In this document: positions 4,214-19,587 of the stretch, one piece after another
How positions within the stretch are numbered: position 1 is the stretch's first letter
How the letters are laid out: the number at the start of each line of letters is the position of its first letter
Source: a virus
Virus record (IMG/VR): IMGVR_UViG_3300042924_004185
Coordinates: 1-22,213 of that record
Reading direction: 5' to 3' (one strand)
Length of the DNA: 22,213 nt
Position numbers and translations under genes: made by a program
Notes under the pieces: model-generated
What the model saw: the letters and a program-made list of their open reading frames with translations, nothing else
What the model was told of the DNA's origin: nothing
The model's database searches: none

Positions 4214-4629
4214 CAGACGCCGAGCGCGCCACACTGATCGAGGAGCTACGCCGGGACGAGGGCGTTGAGCCGTTTCCGTATACCGACACAGTGGGCAAGC
4301 TGACCATTGGCGTCGGCCGGAACCTGACGGATCGCGGCCTGTCCGACGACGAGATCGACTACCTGCTCCGGAGCGATATCGACCTCTGTATCGGCGACCT
4401 GAACCGGGGCGTGCCGTGGTGGGTCACGCTGTCGCCCGTGCGCCAGCGCGTCTTGATCAACATGTGTTTCAACCTCGGCTGGCCGCGTCTCCGGGGCTTT
4501 GTCCGCACGCTTTCAGCCATGCGGCGGGGCGACTTCACGACAGCGGCGGAAGGGATGCGTCTGAGCCTATGGGCGAAGCAAGTCGGCGCACGAGCGGAAC
4601 GACTGGCGCAGATGATGGAACGCGGGTAA
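4210..4629 (+). CDS. Endolysin, T4-type lysozyme (glycoside hydrolase 24)
   Basis: 139 residues from a GTG at 4210; I chose this start because it makes the GTGA overlap with the previous stop and gives a lysozyme of normal short length, while the upstream GTG at 4150 would read through the previous gene. The segment 'RRDEGVEPFPYTDTVGKLTI' carries the catalytic triad of T4 lysozyme: E17, D26 and T32, with the same spacing (9 and 6) as E11/D20/T26 of T4. 'GVGRNLTDRGLSDDEIDYLL' and 'VLINMCFNLGWPRLRGF' are further family features. The enzyme cuts the MurNAc-GlcNAc bond of peptidoglycan. There is no signal peptide or SAR segment, so it should need a holin, probably the preceding gene. Confidence 0.93.
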   Translation: MTDAERATLIEELRRDEGVEPFPYTDTVGKLTIGVGRNLTDRGLSDDEIDYLLRSDIDLCIGDLNRGVPWWVTLSPVRQRVLINMCFNLGWPRLRGFVRTLSAMRRGDFTTAAEGMRLSLWAKQVGARAERLAQMMERG

Positions 4630-4940
4630 CGTGTCGCGTGTGCCACGAACGGCCGGCGTTGCCGTCTCGAGCACGCAACCGGGATTGCCGCTGCGCGCGG
4701 TGCGTGCATCAGTCACCTGGAGGGCGGGCGCGGAATGCGCGCTACTACGCCGGCGAGGCGCGGAAGGCCGTCAACCGACGACACAATGCGCGGCGCATCG
4801 TGATCGGCCAAGAGTATCACTCGACGGCGCGAACCATCGAAGACGCACGGCGCATCAACGCGCACATCAAGGAGAGACTGCGTGAGCTTGTCGAGAGACA
4901 GTCGCACAGAAAAGAAGCTCAAGGCGCTCCGGCGCGCTGA
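4569..4940 (+). CDS. Small Cys4 (zinc-ribbon-like) protein with basic helical tail
   Basis: The frame shows 'VTCRVCHERPALPSRARNRDC' then CRCARC and a basic, Tyr/Arg/Lys-rich helix ending 'INAHIKERLRELVERQSH'. The Cys pairs and the RPA-L-S-R-R spacing match the protein at 7032 in this same window (TCSRCGVRPAKLSNRTRVC), supporting this frame over the overlapping frame 4631-4885. The start is uncertain: the nearest in-frame ATG is 4569, 61 bases inside the lysozyme gene, with GGAAGGG at 4548-4554 rather far upstream. The codon matching the GTG start of the paralogue is GTA here (4626). Likely a small zinc-binding, possibly nucleic-acid-binding protein; function unknown. Confidence 0.6.
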   Translation: MGEASRRTSGTTGADDGTRVTCRVCHERPALPSRARNRDCRCARCVHQSPGGRARNARYYAGEARKAVNRRHNARRIVIGQEYHSTARTIEDARRINAHIKERLRELVERQSHRKEAQGAPAR

Positions 4941-11126: not shown

Positions 11127-11645
11127 ATGCCTAGCGACCAGTCTATCCCATTCGGTTATTGCCAGTGTGGTTGTGGCCAGATTGCGCCACTCGCACCAGC
11201 GACTAGAACAGACCGTGGCGAGGTCAAAGGCCAGCCGCGTAAGTATGTGTTCGGGCATCGTAAGTTTACGCACCGTGAAGCGGTGGGTGGTGCCCTCGCA
11301 GCCCGCCGGAAACTGGCAGACACGTTATCCGCTCGATTCTGGGCGCGTGTGCGTGTCGGAAGCGCCGACGAATGCTGGATCTGGACGGCCGGGACGACGC
11401 GATTCGGGCACGGACGGACAAGCGCATTCGGTCGCGGACACCTAGCTCATAGAGTCGCGTGGTATCTGACCCACGGCGAGATCGGTAAAGACATGTGCGT
11501 GTGTCACCGCTGCGACAACCCGAGGTGCTGCAACCCGTCGCATTTATTCGTTGGCACGCACGCTGACAACGTAGCCGACATGGTGGCCAAAGGCCGTCAC
11601 GGAAAGCGGTGGAGCAGACACAACGGGCGCCAGCCGCCCAAGTGA
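11127..11645 (+). CDS. Free-standing HNH endonuclease (homing type)
   Basis: 172 residues, ATG 11127, AGGAG at 11112-11116. N-terminus 'CQCGCGQIAPLAP...FGHR' is a short Cys-rich piece common in phage HNH proteins. Core: 'DECWIWTAGTTRFGHGRTSA', 'LAHRVAWYLTHGEI' (H108, R109), 'VCHRCDNPRCCNPSHLFVGT' (H127, D130-N131-P132, C134, N136, H139), 'HADNVADMVAKGRH'. This is the classic beta-beta-alpha HNH family of mobile phage endonucleases. They cut one or both strands of related genomes lacking the gene. Codon choice is less G+C rich than neighbours, and the gene is last before a terminator-like hairpin, both fitting recent insertion. Confidence 0.9.
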   Translation: MPSDQSIPFGYCQCGCGQIAPLAPATRTDRGEVKGQPRKYVFGHRKFTHREAVGGALAARRKLADTLSARFWARVRVGSADECWIWTAGTTRFGHGRTSAFGRGHLAHRVAWYLTHGEIGKDMCVCHRCDNPRCCNPSHLFVGTHADNVADMVAKGRHGKRWSRHNGRQPPK

Positions 11646-11730
11646 ATCACCATCCGCCCTCCTACGAGAGTCGGGGCCGGGCGGCGTGACGCCAGAAACG
11701 CCGGGTGTGCCGGCGTGGGGTGGCCGTCCA

Positions 11731-11764
11731 GGTCCGAGTCGGGGCGAGTCGGACCAACTTTTCT
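11731..11764 (+). terminator. Rho-independent terminator-like hairpin after the HNH gene
   Basis: GGTCCGA (11731-11737) pairs perfectly with TCGGACC (11749-11755); the loop is 11 bases and the stem is followed by AACTTTTCT (11756-11764). A seven-pair G+C-rich stem and four Ts make a plausible terminator for the 6500-11645 operon. Confidence 0.55.
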
Positions 11765-11765
11765 G

Positions 11766-11793
11766 TTGCATCGAAATTAGGTTCATGCATAAT
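11766..11793 (+). promoter_or_regulatory. Sigma70-type promoter for the helicase-methyltransferase operon
   Basis: -35 TTGCAT (11766-11771), 16-base spacer, -10 CATAAT (11788-11793), in the most A+T-rich stretch of the region and just after the terminator-like hairpin. Start of transcription would be near 11800, leaving a leader of about 465 bases before the gene at 12265. The spacer is one base short of ideal. Confidence 0.5.
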
Positions 11794-12002
11794 GGTCGGG
11801 AACATCTCGGACGGCTAGGGAATGCATCCCGAAAAGGCGACCCACCATCGCCCTGCCGTCTGACTCATCCGGTGGCCGTGTCGGTGGACGCGGGCAACAC
11901 TCACAGTAAGACTCGTTCCACCACGCTTCACGAAGGCCGGGTCAGCCGGTTGAACGTGGGGCCGGGTCGGTGTAGCTGGGGGCCAGAGGCGCTGGCGGTG
12001 GG

Positions 12003-12023
12003 CGTGAGGACGATCCCCTCACG
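12003..12023 (+). promoter_or_regulatory. Leader hairpin 1 (perfect 7-bp stem)
   Basis: CGTGAGG (12003-12009), 7-base loop, CCTCACG (12017-12023). No T run follows, so it is an RNA structure or protein site, not a terminator. Confidence 0.4.
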
Positions 12024-12119
12024 AAGCAGGCTACACAGGCTCGTGATCGACGACGAAGTGACTGACCGAGTGACCGACCGACCGAGAGGGCAGACGCATT
12101 ACGCGGCTGAGCAGTGAAC

Positions 12120-12135
12120 GGAAGAACAGTCTTCC
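12120..12135 (+). promoter_or_regulatory. Leader hairpin 2 (perfect 6-bp stem, 4-base loop)
   Basis: GGAAGA (12120-12125), loop ACAG, TCTTCC (12130-12135). It stands 16 bases before the G-run tract. No T run follows. Confidence 0.4.
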
Positions 12136-12151
12136 TAGTAACTGCCCTTGA

Positions 12152-12174
12152 GGGAGGGAGGGAGCGAGGGAGGG
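12152..12174 (+). promoter_or_regulatory. Potential G-quadruplex in the leader
   Basis: Five GGG runs at 12152-12154, 12156-12158, 12160-12162, 12168-12170 and 12172-12174, separated by single As and once by AGCGA. This fits the G3+N1-7 quadruplex rule on the coding strand, so the mRNA leader could also fold it. It lies about 90 bases before the start codon of the helicase-methyltransferase. Confidence 0.5.
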
Positions 12175-12227
12175 AGCGGAGACGGGGAACGTGTCTTTGG
12201 TTTCTTTTTCGGGAATCTTTCGTGAAC

Positions 12228-12251
12228 GCGGCCGGTTGTTAGCGAGGCCGC
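12228..12251 (+). promoter_or_regulatory. Hairpin next to the ribosome site of the 12265 gene
   Basis: GCGGCC (12228-12233) pairs with GGCCGC (12246-12251), 12-base loop. The ribosome site AAGGGGGAG (12252-12260) begins immediately after the stem, so this structure borders the translation start and could modulate it. Confidence 0.4.
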
Positions 12252-12264
12252 AAGGGGGAGACGG

Positions 12265-14541
12265 ATGGATTACCAGGAGTTCCTCGCGGCCAAAGCGCTG
12301 CGAGTGGAAGCGGTCGGATTCGAGGCGGGGGCGTTCGCCGCTGACCTGTTCCCGTTCCAGCGCGACATCGTGTCGCTGGCGTGCAAGCTCGGACGGTTCT
12401 GCATCTGGGCTGATTGCGGGATGGGCAAGACGGCCATGCAACTCGAATGGGCGCGTCAGGTCTGCGAGCACACCGGGGGCCGCGTGCTCATCCTCGCCCC
12501 GCTGGCCGTGAGCCATCAGACCGTGCGGGAGGCGGAGAAGTTCGGCATTCACGGCGTGGCCTTCGCAGCGCGCCCCGGCGACACCGACGCCCGCATCGTA
12601 GTCACGAACTACCAGAAGCTTGACCACTTCGACCCGAAAGACTTCGTCGGCGTGGTGCTCGACGAGTCGTCGATCCTTAAGGCCGTGGACGGCAAGACGC
12701 GCTCGGCCATTCTCGCCGCGTTCTCGTGGACGCCCTACCGGCTGGCGTGCTCCGCGACCCCAGCCCCGAACGATTTCATGGAGCTGGGCAACCATGCCGA
12801 GTTCTTGGGCGTGATGACCCGCGAGGAAATGCTCGCCATGTTCTTTATCCACGACGGCGGGGACACGAGCCAGTGGCGCATCAAGGGCCACGCGCAGGGC
12901 AAGTTCTGGGAGTGGGTCTGCACGTGGGCGGTGACGATTCGGAAGCCGTCCGACCTCGGCTACGACGACGGCGCGTTCCTGCTGCCGACGCTTCAGATGC
13001 ACGAGCGGGTGGTCCACACGCCGCTGGACGCCATCACGGACGCCAATGGGCAGCACGGGCTGTTCGCTCATCAGGCGCTCACGTTGGGCGACCAGCGCGC
13101 CGTGCAGCGGTCGTCTCTGGACCTGCGCGTGGCCGAGGCTGTGGCGCTGGCGAATCAGCCGGGGCAGTGGATCGTCTGGTGCCATCTAAACGACGAATCG
13201 TCGGCGCTGGCGGCGCAGATTCAGGGCGCGGTGGAAGTCACGGGCGGCGACACCGACGAGCACAAAGAGGCGGCGATGCTCGGCTTCCAGCGCGGCGAGA
13301 TTCGCGTGCTGGTGAGCAAGGCGTCCATCTGCGGGTTCGGGATGAACTTCCAGAACTGCCATCAGGTCGTGTTCGTGGGCCTGTCGCATAGCTACGAATC
13401 GTTCTATCAGGCCATCCGGCGCGTGTGGCGGTTCGGGCAGGCGTCGGCCGTGGATGCCTACGTGGTCTACGACTGGGCCGAGGGGGCCGTGGTGGAGAAT
13501 CTGCGCCGCAAGGAGCGCGAATCCGGCGTGATGGCCGAGAGGATGGTGGAGATCATGCGGCAGACGACGATGGAGCAGTTGCAGCAGGTGCAGCGCACGG
13601 TGACGCCCTACATGGAGACGGTCACGAGCGGCGAGGGGTGGACAGCCTACCAGGGCGATTGCGTGGAGGGCGTGCGGCGGCTGGCCGACAACAGCGTGCA
13701 TTATTCGATCTTCTCGCCCCCGTTCGCCTCGCTCTACACCTACAGCAACAGCGACCGAGACATGGGCAACTGTAAGACCGGCGATGAGTTTGCCGCGCAC
13801 TTCGCGTTCCTTGTCAAGGAACTGCACCGCGTCCTCATGCCTGGCCGGCTGGTGTCCTTCCACTGCATGAACCTGCCACTGTCGAAGGCCCGCGACGGGG
13901 TGATCGGGATTCGGGACTTCCGGGGCGAGATGATCCGGCTGTTCGAGTCGGAAGGCTTCATCTTTCATTCCGAGGTCTGCATCTGGAAAGACCCCGTGAC
14001 CGCGATGCAGCGCACGAAGGCGCTCGGGCTGCTGCACAAGCAGATCGTGAAGGACTCGGCCATGAGCCGCCAGGGCGTGCCCGACTACCTCGTGACCATG
14101 CGGAAGCGCGGCGACAACCCGGAGCCGGTCGCCGGGAAGCTCGACGACTTTCGGGGCACGGATGGCCCGCGCATGACGGGCGACGCCACGCGGAACAGCA
14201 TCAACATCTGGCAGCGCTACGCTTCGCCGGTCTGGATGGATATCAACCCGTCCGACACGCTGCAATTCCGGAACGCCCGCGACAACGACGACGAGCGGCA
14301 CATCTGCCCGTTGCAGCTCGACGTGATTCGGCGCGGCGTGCAGCTCTGGAGCAACCCCGGCGATGTGGTGCTCTCGCCGTTCATGGGCATCGCGTCCGAG
14401 GGGCACGTCGCGCTGGAACTGGGGCGGGCGTTCATCGGGTTTGAATTGAAGCCGAGCTACTACGCCTGCGCGGTGGGCAACCTGAAGTCGGCGGAAGCGG
14501 CAGGGAAGGTGCCGACGTTGTTCGATGAGGTGACGGCGTGA
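12265..14541 (+). CDS. SNF2-like helicase fused to a beta-class DNA methyltransferase
   Basis: 758 residues, ATG 12265 after AAGGGGGAG. N-terminal half is an SF2/SNF2 motor: Q-like box 'FPFQRDIVSLA', Walker A 'ADCGMGKTA' (49-57, K55), DESS (133-136) in the DExx position, SAT (163-165), and C-terminal lobe with 'VLVSKASICGFGMNFQNCHQ' and motif VI 'QAIRRVWRFGQ' (382-392). After a helical link (~415-450) comes a methyltransferase in the beta order: 'YQGDCVEGVRRL', motif IV SPPF (484-487), then SAM motif I 'SPFMGIASEG' (704-713) and 'GFELKPSYY' (725-733). SPPF-type enzymes methylate exocyclic amines (N4-cytosine or N6-adenine). The motor may bring the methylase along DNA to modify the phage genome. 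Such fusions occur in phages; target site unknown. Confidence 0.88.
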   Translation: MDYQEFLAAKALRVEAVGFEAGAFAADLFPFQRDIVSLACKLGRFCIWADCGMGKTAMQLEWARQVCEHTGGRVLILAPLAVSHQTVREAEKFGIHGVAFAARPGDTDARIVVTNYQKLDHFDPKDFVGVVLDESSILKAVDGKTRSAILAAFSWTPYRLACSATPAPNDFMELGNHAEFLGVMTREEMLAMFFIHDGGDTSQWRIKGHAQGKFWEWVCTWAVTIRKPSDLGYDDGAFLLPTLQMHERVVHTPLDAITDANGQHGLFAHQALTLGDQRAVQRSSLDLRVAEAVALANQPGQWIVWCHLNDESSALAAQIQGAVEVTGGDTDEHKEAAMLGFQRGEIRVLVSKASICGFGMNFQNCHQVVFVGLSHSYESFYQAIRRVWRFGQASAVDAYVVYDWAEGAVVENLRRKERESGVMAERMVEIMRQTTMEQLQQVQRTVTPYMETVTSGEGWTAYQGDCVEGVRRLADNSVHYSIFSPPFASLYTYSNSDRDMGNCKTGDEFAAHFAFLVKELHRVLMPGRLVSFHCMNLPLSKARDGVIGIRDFRGEMIRLFESEGFIFHSEVCIWKDPVTAMQRTKALGLLHKQIVKDSAMSRQGVPDYLVTMRKRGDNPEPVAGKLDDFRGTDGPRMTGDATRNSINIWQRYASPVWMDINPSDTLQFRNARDNDDERHICPLQLDVIRRGVQLWSNPGDVVLSPFMGIASEGHVALELGRAFIGFELKPSYYACAVGNLKSAEAAGKVPTLFDEVTA

Positions 14542-14897
14542 CAGCGTTCGACGAGTTCTGGCAGCACTTCCCGCGCCGGGAAAAGAAGCAAGCCGCCCGT
14601 GACGCCTTTGCCTGGGCGATGAAGAAGCACAACGGGGACGGGCAGTTGCTCGCCCGCATCCTCGACACGATCTCGTGGCAGATCGTGATGCAGCCCGATC
14701 CGCGCTACTGGCAGATGGCCGACAAGTGGCTGCTCGGGATGCGCTGGGAAGATGAAAAGCCGCTCACGGCCGAGGAGCAGGCGCAGATGGCGCAGTTCCG
14801 GACGTGGCAGCAGGCGAACGCGCACGACGAGGCGGCGCGCACGGTCACGTTCGACATGTTCCAACGCTACGCGGCGGGGCAAAGGAGACGGGCATGA
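14538..14897 (+). CDS. Replication-protein C-terminal-like domain (RepO/DnaT-type)
   Basis: 119 residues, GTG in GTGA overlap with the helicase-methylase. Sequence 'FDEFWQHFPRREKKQAARDA' then a helix and 'PDPRYWQMADKWLLGMRWED' follows the pattern F-x-x-F-W-x-x-[YF]-P-R-[RK]-x-x-K-x-x-A...W-L-x-x-x-R-W-E-D that closes many phage replication initiator and helicase-loader proteins (O- or DnaT-like). Here it stands alone without the N-terminal winged helix. Possible role: loading the replicative helicase or binding single-stranded DNA at the fork. The assignment rests on pattern only; the partner helicase is not in the window. Confidence 0.65.
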   Translation: MTAFDEFWQHFPRREKKQAARDAFAWAMKKHNGDGQLLARILDTISWQIVMQPDPRYWQMADKWLLGMRWEDEKPLTAEEQAQMAQFRTWQQANAHDEAARTVTFDMFQRYAAGQRRRA

Positions 14898-15226: not shown

Positions 15227-15492
15227 TGCCCTTCCGTCAAGCCACCGGCCGCGAGACGTGCAACGACTGCCGCAGAAAGCTCGACCTGGGCGCGCCCGTC
15301 TACGTCGGGGACATCACGGGGATGAAGTGGTGCGAGCCCTGCGCGGCCGAGATGGGGCGCACGGTGGACGGCCCGGTGCCGCGTGTGACGGCCCTCGGGG
15401 GCATGGCGGGGATTCGGGAGGGGCTAGAGGCGCTGGCGCGGAAGTATCGGTTCACGCCGCCGCCGTCGTGGCACGAGAGGGGGGAGGAGTAG
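15226..15492 (+). CDS. 88-residue Cys4 zinc-ribbon protein
   Basis: ATG 15226 in TAATG overlap. 'ETCNDCRRKLDLGAPVYVGD' and 'MKWCEPCAAEMG' give two CxxC pairs 21 residues apart with a beta hairpin between, the look of a zinc ribbon. Its C-terminus has a short helix and 'FTPPPSWHERGEE'. Cytoplasmic. Probably binds nucleic acid or partner protein; no family name. The next ATG follows the stop directly. Confidence 0.68.
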   Translation: MPFRQATGRETCNDCRRKLDLGAPVYVGDITGMKWCEPCAAEMGRTVDGPVPRVTALGGMAGIREGLEALARKYRFTPPPSWHERGEE

Positions 15493-18889: not shown

Positions 18890-19587
18890 GCATCCCGAAC
18901 GGCAGGCACATCGTCGAGCAGTTGGCGGCGCAGTATCCGCAGGAGTGGTGGGACGCGCACCGCCCGAGCGGCGGCGGTCCCAAGACGGAAGCGTTCATCC
19001 GGCGTCTCGCCTGGGTGCTGCACTCCACGGTCGATCCGCGTTTCGGGCTGTGCGGCAAGCGCGGCAACCCGGCCGACATCAGTGACGACGCCCTCTGCTA
19101 CGACGGCGTGTCGCAGTTGGGCGACGTGGACCCGACACGCGGGGGCGTGCCGGTCACGGTGCTCGACGTCATCGGCGGCGCCGGTGGTCCGACTCCCACG
19201 GCGCAGTGGGGCGCCGCAGGCCCAGCCACGCCACGGCCGCATGCGGCGTGGGTGCGTCCGGAGCCGGTGGGCGGTGTGAGCAGTGGCGGCGGCGGCACCC
19301 CCCTTTCCGCGCCCCCTGTCCCCGCCCCCGGCCCGGACCTGACGCCCGTGCTCGTCAGACTGGAAGTGTTGCGCGTCACCGTAGACAGCATCGCGGCAAA
19401 GCTGGACGCCATAAAGAGTGCGGTGGAGAAAGCCGCACACGAGTCCGAGCAGGCCGCAGGACGCGCCAGCGACATCAAGGCACAGATCGCCAATCTCCCC
19501 GCGTCCAAGCCGTTCCCGCGCTACAAGGGCCGCGTGCCCAAGGCGTTCGGGGGCTCAACCGATGTGATCCTGACCCCCGAAGAGTAG
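18886..19587 (+). CDS. Phage structural-type protein with Pro-rich linker and coiled coil
   Basis: 233 residues, ATG in ATGA. N-terminal domain (1-~90) 'HIVEQLAAQYPQEWWDAHRP' and 'HSTVDPRFGLCGKRGNPADI' plus 'SDDALCYDG' follows the L-H-x-x-D-x-R-[FW]-G-x-x-G-K-R-G-N-x-x-D-I-S-x-D-A pattern of an unnamed phage family usually near tail/virion genes. A Pro/Gly/Ser-rich linker (about 110-150) leads to a C-terminal helix 'IAAKLDAIKSAVEKAAHESE' that should form a coiled coil. No enzyme motif. Likely virion-associated or cell-surface accessory. Confidence 0.65.
   Translation: MSIPNGRHIVEQLAAQYPQEWWDAHRPSGGGPKTEAFIRRLAWVLHSTVDPRFGLCGKRGNPADISDDALCYDGVSQLGDVDPTRGGVPVTVLDVIGGAGGPTPTAQWGAAGPATPRPHAAWVRPEPVGGVSSGGGGTPLSAPPVPAPGPDLTPVLVRLEVLRVTVDSIAAKLDAIKSAVEKAAHESEQAAGRASDIKAQIANLPASKPFPRYKGRVPKAFGGSTDVILTPEE

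Follow-up and report, generated by a model that had tools for sequence, protein, structure and literature searches.

Among described RNAs, the C4 antisense RNA of phages P1/P7 folds into three stems, has a loop that can pair with a ribosome site, and acts in trans (PMC5320573). C4 (RF01695) shares with the Rfam family int-alpA (RF02996) this combination of three stems and a ribosome-site-complementary loop, but the int-alpA RNA of the window gives no match to the C4 model, and the target in the family appears to be the adjacent gene in cis. According to PMC2988022, T4-type homing endonucleases (I-TevI, segB, mobE) are kept silent by hairpins over their ribosome-binding sites, which is likewise control of homing endonuclease translation by a phage RNA structure. 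There a simple hairpin is used whose formation depends on the promoter, whereas int-alpA would use a conserved junction and a loop with exchangeable partners. Translational riboswitches also combine a conserved core with alternative, mutually exclusive pairings by which the Shine-Dalgarno (SD) sequence is exposed or masked; unlike them, int-alpA has no known ligand, and the genes behind it do not belong to one pathway. int-alpA is an Rfam family without known function; in the literature searched, a single paper lists it, as an entry in a genome table, and none gives the accession RF02996. The comparison reported here yields a concrete candidate mechanism, in which one loop would have two mutually exclusive partners. 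This rule was derived by comparison, and the original description of int-alpA may already note a pseudoknot.

The window, that is the whole stretch of viral DNA analysed (22,213 nt), contains a long leader between two operons, the features of which are listed in the table.

Table. Features of the leader and of its flanking genes (window coordinates).
Feature	Position	Strand	Basis or remark
HNH_3 endonuclease gene	11127..11645	+	Pfam HNH_3 3e-13; PHROG endonuclease; 3' end adjoins the leader
Terminator-like hairpin of the upstream operon, then TTTTC	11731..11755	+	inverted repeat I6, 91% complementary
Promoter-like site TTGCAT (11766-11771), 16-nt spacer, CATAAT (11788-11793)	11766..11793	+	read from sequence
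int-alpA core: P1 11808-11815/11855-11862, P2 11818-11820/11828-11830, P3 11836-11840/11848-11852	11808..11862	+	RF02996, R1, fold
Loop L3, CCCACCA, predicted pairing loop	11841..11847	+	fold; family statistics
PK1, GGTGG, predicted first L3 partner (pseudoknot), offset 8 from P1 (family median 8)	11871..11875	+	complementarity
Hairpin P4, loop with predicted second L3 partner GGTGG (11883-11887), offset 20 (family median 22)	11876..11893	+	fold; family statistics
Remaining leader, without start codon at the usual place and without coding signal	11894..12264	+	frame and coding tests
G-run tract	12152..12174	+	fits simple G3N1-7 quadruplex rule
Long GA/CU hairpin, T-rich run at its end (terminator-like)	12165..12211	+	fold of 12140-12216, -31.4 kcal/mol
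TTTTCGGGA, 9-nt perfect complement of RNA core 11827-11835	12206..12214	+	inside inverted repeat I1
Hairpin directly 5' of the helicase SD	12228..12251	+	fold
Helicase-methyltransferase gene	12265..14541	+	Pfam N6_N4_Mtase, Helicase_C; PHROG 16
C-terminal part of primosomal / replication initiation protein	14538..14897	+	phrog_9327 positions 173-262 of 276

The preliminary description had read this region as a terminator-like hairpin, a promoter and a long non-coding stretch with further hairpins and tracts, and these elements were all recovered. The terminator-like hairpin forms 10 of 11 pairs (-17.6 kcal/mol including its flanks), ~465 non-coding nucleotides extend from a putative transcription start near 11800 to 12264, and RNA 11800-12270 folds better than each of 100 shuffled versions (z -3.25). 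A strict promoter scan listed no sites, the tabulated one included, and the promoter assignment therefore rests on reading and position. Both tracts are present, the GACC tract (~12060-12086, read from sequence) and the G-run tract, as is the hairpin at the ribosome site, which stops 2 nt ahead of the GGGGG. The word 'perfect' used for the hairpins holds approximately for those of the RNA and for the ribosome-site hairpin, and it fails for the terminator hairpin, which has one mismatch. The terminator scan additionally reported a terminator-like site at 12177-12199, within the GA/CU hairpin. Sequences fitting the simple G-quadruplex rule also occur in the window at 13897-13925 and 15397-15423 on the + strand and at 19312-19334 on the - strand.

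The leader starts with an int-alpA RNA. RF02996 matched 11808-11875 on the + strand with 44.5 bits (cut-off 35.8), spanning model positions 1-71 of 71, and this was the sole Rfam match in the whole window. The earlier suggestion of a riboregulator or small RNA is thus supported, as the promoter-proximal part belongs to a strongly covarying family and scores above its curated cut-off. The window RNA has the consensus P1-P2-P3 arrangement, the conserved junction (strands UA, GAAAA and CU) and the same CUAG, CGAAAAG and CCUG motifs as RF02996, and the last positions of the model cover PK1. A model of my own, R1, gave 58.4 bits, the window sequence being one of the 81 sequences from which R1 was built, and a search with R1 found no further int-alpA copies in the window. 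P1 to P4 all form in the minimum-energy fold. L3 matches both PK1 and a second copy of this target, each at the offset usual in the family (by the rule derived here), with predicted duplex energies of -9.0 kcal/mol for PK1 and -9.8 kcal/mol for the second copy; these matches are just 5 nt each, a length that ~10% of permuted pairs reach. The copy departs from the family in its surroundings: it does not lie between integrase and alpA (a site taken from the family name and not a criterion of the model) but between the HNH_3 and helicase-methyltransferase genes, and no gene follows at once, there being no start codon 27-43 nt past P1. A DNA similarity search in phages returned helicase and HNH pieces only and left the leader unmatched. 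A single close copy of the window RNA was found, nearly identical and located on a sister contig (L047), so that the covariation of the family comes from other relatives.

Relatives were collected from a loose pattern scan of viral contigs, a scan for the P2 type of the window (34 stretches) and a scan of bacterial and archaeal genomes (57 stretches). Filtering considered the pairing of P1 and of P3 and disregarded L3 complementarity; it left 110 unique cores, the counts for which include a few spurious-looking matches (L200, L085 and L099). In two batches of loci, 9 of 20 and 11 of 16 had at least one int-alpA match above the Rfam cut-off, and the set therefore consists of the Rfam family plus more divergent members. 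For A3, 81 of 86 selected cores were used (L093, L115, L127, L134 and L290 were left out). A pattern-free set retained 55 of 63 hits after removal of repeats, training cores and hits with too little downstream DNA.

The relatives share a common fold, a three-way junction with a near-invariant core. Covariation across related phages had been proposed as a check, and the helices do covary: alignment A4, with 105 distinct rows, has 91.0% paired cells, changes on both sides are seen in 14 of its 15 pairs, and 454 double-changed cells compare with 137.5 +- 10.2 after shuffling and with at most 132 in slid versions. In A5 (61 distinct rows, almost all of them retrieved solely by the model), all 15 pairs are changed on both sides, with 248 double-changed cells against 72.7 +- 7.5 shuffled and at most 65 in slid versions; both alignments were fitted to the structure of the model. 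Across the pattern-free alignment, conservation of the unpaired junction residues amounts to 85-100% (U 59/60, A 60/60, G 58/61, A 61/61 and A 60/60, followed by A 53/58, A 52/57, C 52/61 and U 57/58). TATAAT-like hexamers, resembling a -10 element in at least five of six positions, start 8-14 nt ahead of P1 at 52 positions over 164 members, where ~5 are expected, and many int-alpA RNAs therefore seem to begin at P1. The -10 hexamer of the window begins 20 nt ahead of P1.

The sequence of L3 is not conserved, and its complement is found, for most members, in a strand ~8 nt past P1 (PK1). Counting at least five contiguous Watson-Crick pairs within 25 nt, and taking downstream stretches swapped between members as the null, L3:PK1 complementarity was present in 86 of the 110 unique cores against 10.9 expected (maximum 18 in 100 permutations), and in 44 of the 55 pattern-free hits against 8.4 (maximum 15 in 200). 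The target occurs a second time ~22 nt downstream, mostly within a hairpin loop that bears the SD of the next gene. For this SD region (20-45 nt), complementarity was found in 48/110 cores (11.3 expected, maximum 23) and 36/55 pattern-free hits (10.1 expected, maximum 18). Beyond 60 nt the counts of the 110-core set are near chance, at 11 vs 9.2 and 14 vs 11.6; the pattern-free set is at chance level at 45-95 nt and shows 14 vs 7.9 (maximum 15) at 95-120 nt. A P4 stem of at least four pairs occurs in 50 of the 74 members with PK1 and ATG, where shuffling gives 15.1; in 54 of these 74, the second copy falls at least partly within the P4 loop. The P4 loops read as SD sequences, for example GACGAG or ACGGAG, and are followed by the start codon. 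Start codons, as chosen by script, lie at a median of 33 nt and mostly 27-43 nt past P1; among the 110 members there are 99 ATG and 3 GTG, the chance GTG of the window apart, and seven members have none.

Identical L3 bases serve both partners in 110 of the 116 members that have both, with PK1 giving the more stable duplex in 85 of the 116 (mean -8.4 vs -6.9 kcal/mol). Because L3 fits both PK1 and the SD region with the same bases, the int-alpA RNA most likely gates translation of the next gene in cis. Contig L102 carries two copies with two different L3 loops, each of which matches its own PK1 and SD, and this favours cis action. In L154 (4561-4660) the RNA directly follows an apparent stop codon, and an intrinsic-terminator-like hairpin with a T run comes right after PK1 in place of an SD; not all members therefore gate translation, and L154 is possibly a stand-alone small RNA form.

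In the mechanism that this comparison suggests, the three-way junction would present L3, which could pair either with PK1, the strand immediately 3' of the junction, or with the SD-bearing loop of P4. Pairing with PK1 would leave the SD loop free and allow translation of the gene, while pairing with the P4 loop would cover the SD and presumably represents the OFF state. The near-invariant junction is the probable site at which a protein or ligand sets the balance. The window has P1-P3, L3, PK1, P4 and the promoter-like site but no start codon after P4, and because of this the copy is best explained as the head of a former promoter-RNA-gene cassette, which would have been kept after loss of the gene and would now form the 5' end of the replication-operon transcript. 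I assign a probability of about 0.65 to this reading as a whole, the L3 switch in the family together with the window copy as a kept cassette head, on the strength of sequence comparison.

Since no start codon lies 27-43 nt past P1, the gate of the window cannot control an adjoining gene in the manner usual for the family. The preliminary description had considered a leader controlling the helicase-methyltransferase, which finds no backing: besides the missing start codon, the helicase gene lies 370 nt further on, and RF02996 occurs in only one of 50 records of helicase relatives, namely the sister contig. A conserved protein encoded in the leader, named there as a finding that would speak against an RNA, was sought and none was found. 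The longest leader frame, 77 codons from a GTG at 11884, is open and directly behind the RNA, as a small protein would require. Its codon score is at non-coding level (410 of 1159 stop-free non-coding stretches are as good), a PHROG search gave no match, its single viral relative is the near-identical sister contig, and it starts at offset 21, the wrong place compared with the start codons of the family; the candidate was rejected on the first three of these grounds, and a small protein here is very hard to credit. The sister contig shares the leader and lacks the HNH_3 gene, and the alignment diverges upstream of ~11640; the stretch 11127-11645 of the window and 3700-4370 of L047 form a homing-endonuclease-like polymorphism beside the nearly identical leader. 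The HNH_3 gene has a codon score of -0.03, while most other genes score 0.2-0.36.

It is also conceivable, though rather unlikely, that the leader is a functionless scar, in which the cassette lost its gene and the remainder is drifting. The unequal HNH content of the window and the sister contig and a leader without start codon or coding signal would suit this, as would the closest relative (L002, 79% helicase identity), in which, by reading of the sequence, an HNH-type gene stands directly before the helicase and such a leader is missing; against drift stands that the copy has every structural part and both partners of L3 in intact form and scores well above the cut-off. An RNA acting like C4, with the junction cut from the transcript and L3 directed in trans at other mRNAs, is improbable, since in one member after another L3 matches the SD region of the gene next to it, for which a cis element is the simpler explanation. 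Moreover, the C4 model was unmatched up to E 5 in 11500-12400, and by my own reading of the list neither TGGTGG nor GGTGGG occurs at SD spacing before a start codon in the window, so that no trans targets of L3 were found there. What speaks for such an RNA is that Rfam types int-alpA as 'Gene; sRNA', that C4 likewise has three stems and a ribosome-site-covering loop and is processed by RNase P (PMC5320573), that a terminator-like hairpin directly follows PK1 in L154, and that no gene adjoins the RNA in the window.

Some 50 nt ahead of the helicase gene, the T-run 12206-12214 is a 9-nt perfect complement of 11827-11835 in the core, where the conserved CGAAAA lies, and follows a strong hairpin; its pairing with the core could couple folding of the RNA to termination at the GA/CU hairpin, making the leader an attenuator of the helicase operon. 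By my own estimate ~0.1 such match is expected by chance in the leader, and the complement may be a chance match; because the relatives point to L3, and not CGAAAA, as the pairing loop, attenuation is kept as a weak rival with little to recommend it. A replication origin, which the preliminary description had also raised, would explain a long non-coding stretch ahead of replication genes. It is the least credible proposal, as GC skew climbs steadily through the region with no switch and the direct repeats in 11600-12300 are short and two-copy.

As regards the genes that the RNA precedes in other genomes, the Pfam families among 94 genes directly behind it were DUF1376 (13), HNH_3 (11), AP2 (7), NUMOD3 (5), GIY-YIG (4) and NUMOD4 (3); these were 94 of 103 downstream frames (A2), the chance frame of the window (L001) and eight long proteins being left out. 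By single PHROGs, 16 were assigned to HNH endonuclease and 15 to primosomal protein. For the second gene on (A7, 72 of 80 used), DUF1376 and HNH fell to 2 each and AlpA was found 3 times. In the pattern-free set, the 44 downstream genes (A6, 44 of 52 used, eight short or doubtful frames left out) were mixed, with DUF1376, HNH_3 and HNH at one member each among the 25 families listed, and the endonuclease and primosomal enrichment is therefore a feature of the first, phage-rich set rather than of int-alpA at large. The window contains seemingly only the C-terminal part of a member of the primosomal family whose genes in other phages often lie behind int-alpA RNAs (14538-14897).

Titles of the matches in the genome scan named Proteobacteria, Planctomycetota, Clostridia, Nitrospirae and others. 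In pattern-free searches with R1, carriers made up 21 of 274 genomes in the class of an Alteromonas genome (the genome at the centre is a known carrier and is counted), 19 of 199 in the phylum of a Planctomycetota genome (including the centre and the known carriers G082 and G098), and one of 199 in the phylum of a Clostridia metagenome-assembled genome (G109), that one being the centre itself. The comparison links int-alpA in phages to genes for homing endonucleases and for replication, and shows it in many groups. A wider proposal can be offered tentatively and with more doubt than confidence: int-alpA may be a widespread cis-acting sensor switch of phages and mobile elements, the junction of which would sense a protein or ligand common to very different hosts and shift L3 between PK1 and the SD loop, timing translation of homing endonucleases, replication-initiation and regulatory genes, with the window copy loosed from its gene at the head of the replication operon. 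If the junction senses something, it would constitute a new phage riboswitch or protein-sensing class. Two genomes (G634 and G672) each carry eight int-alpA copies, those of G634 including two in tandem 120 nt apart (L381 / L389 142-337), and one viral contig (L083) carries both an int-alpA and a GP20-b RNA, at 46-119 and 4621-4676.
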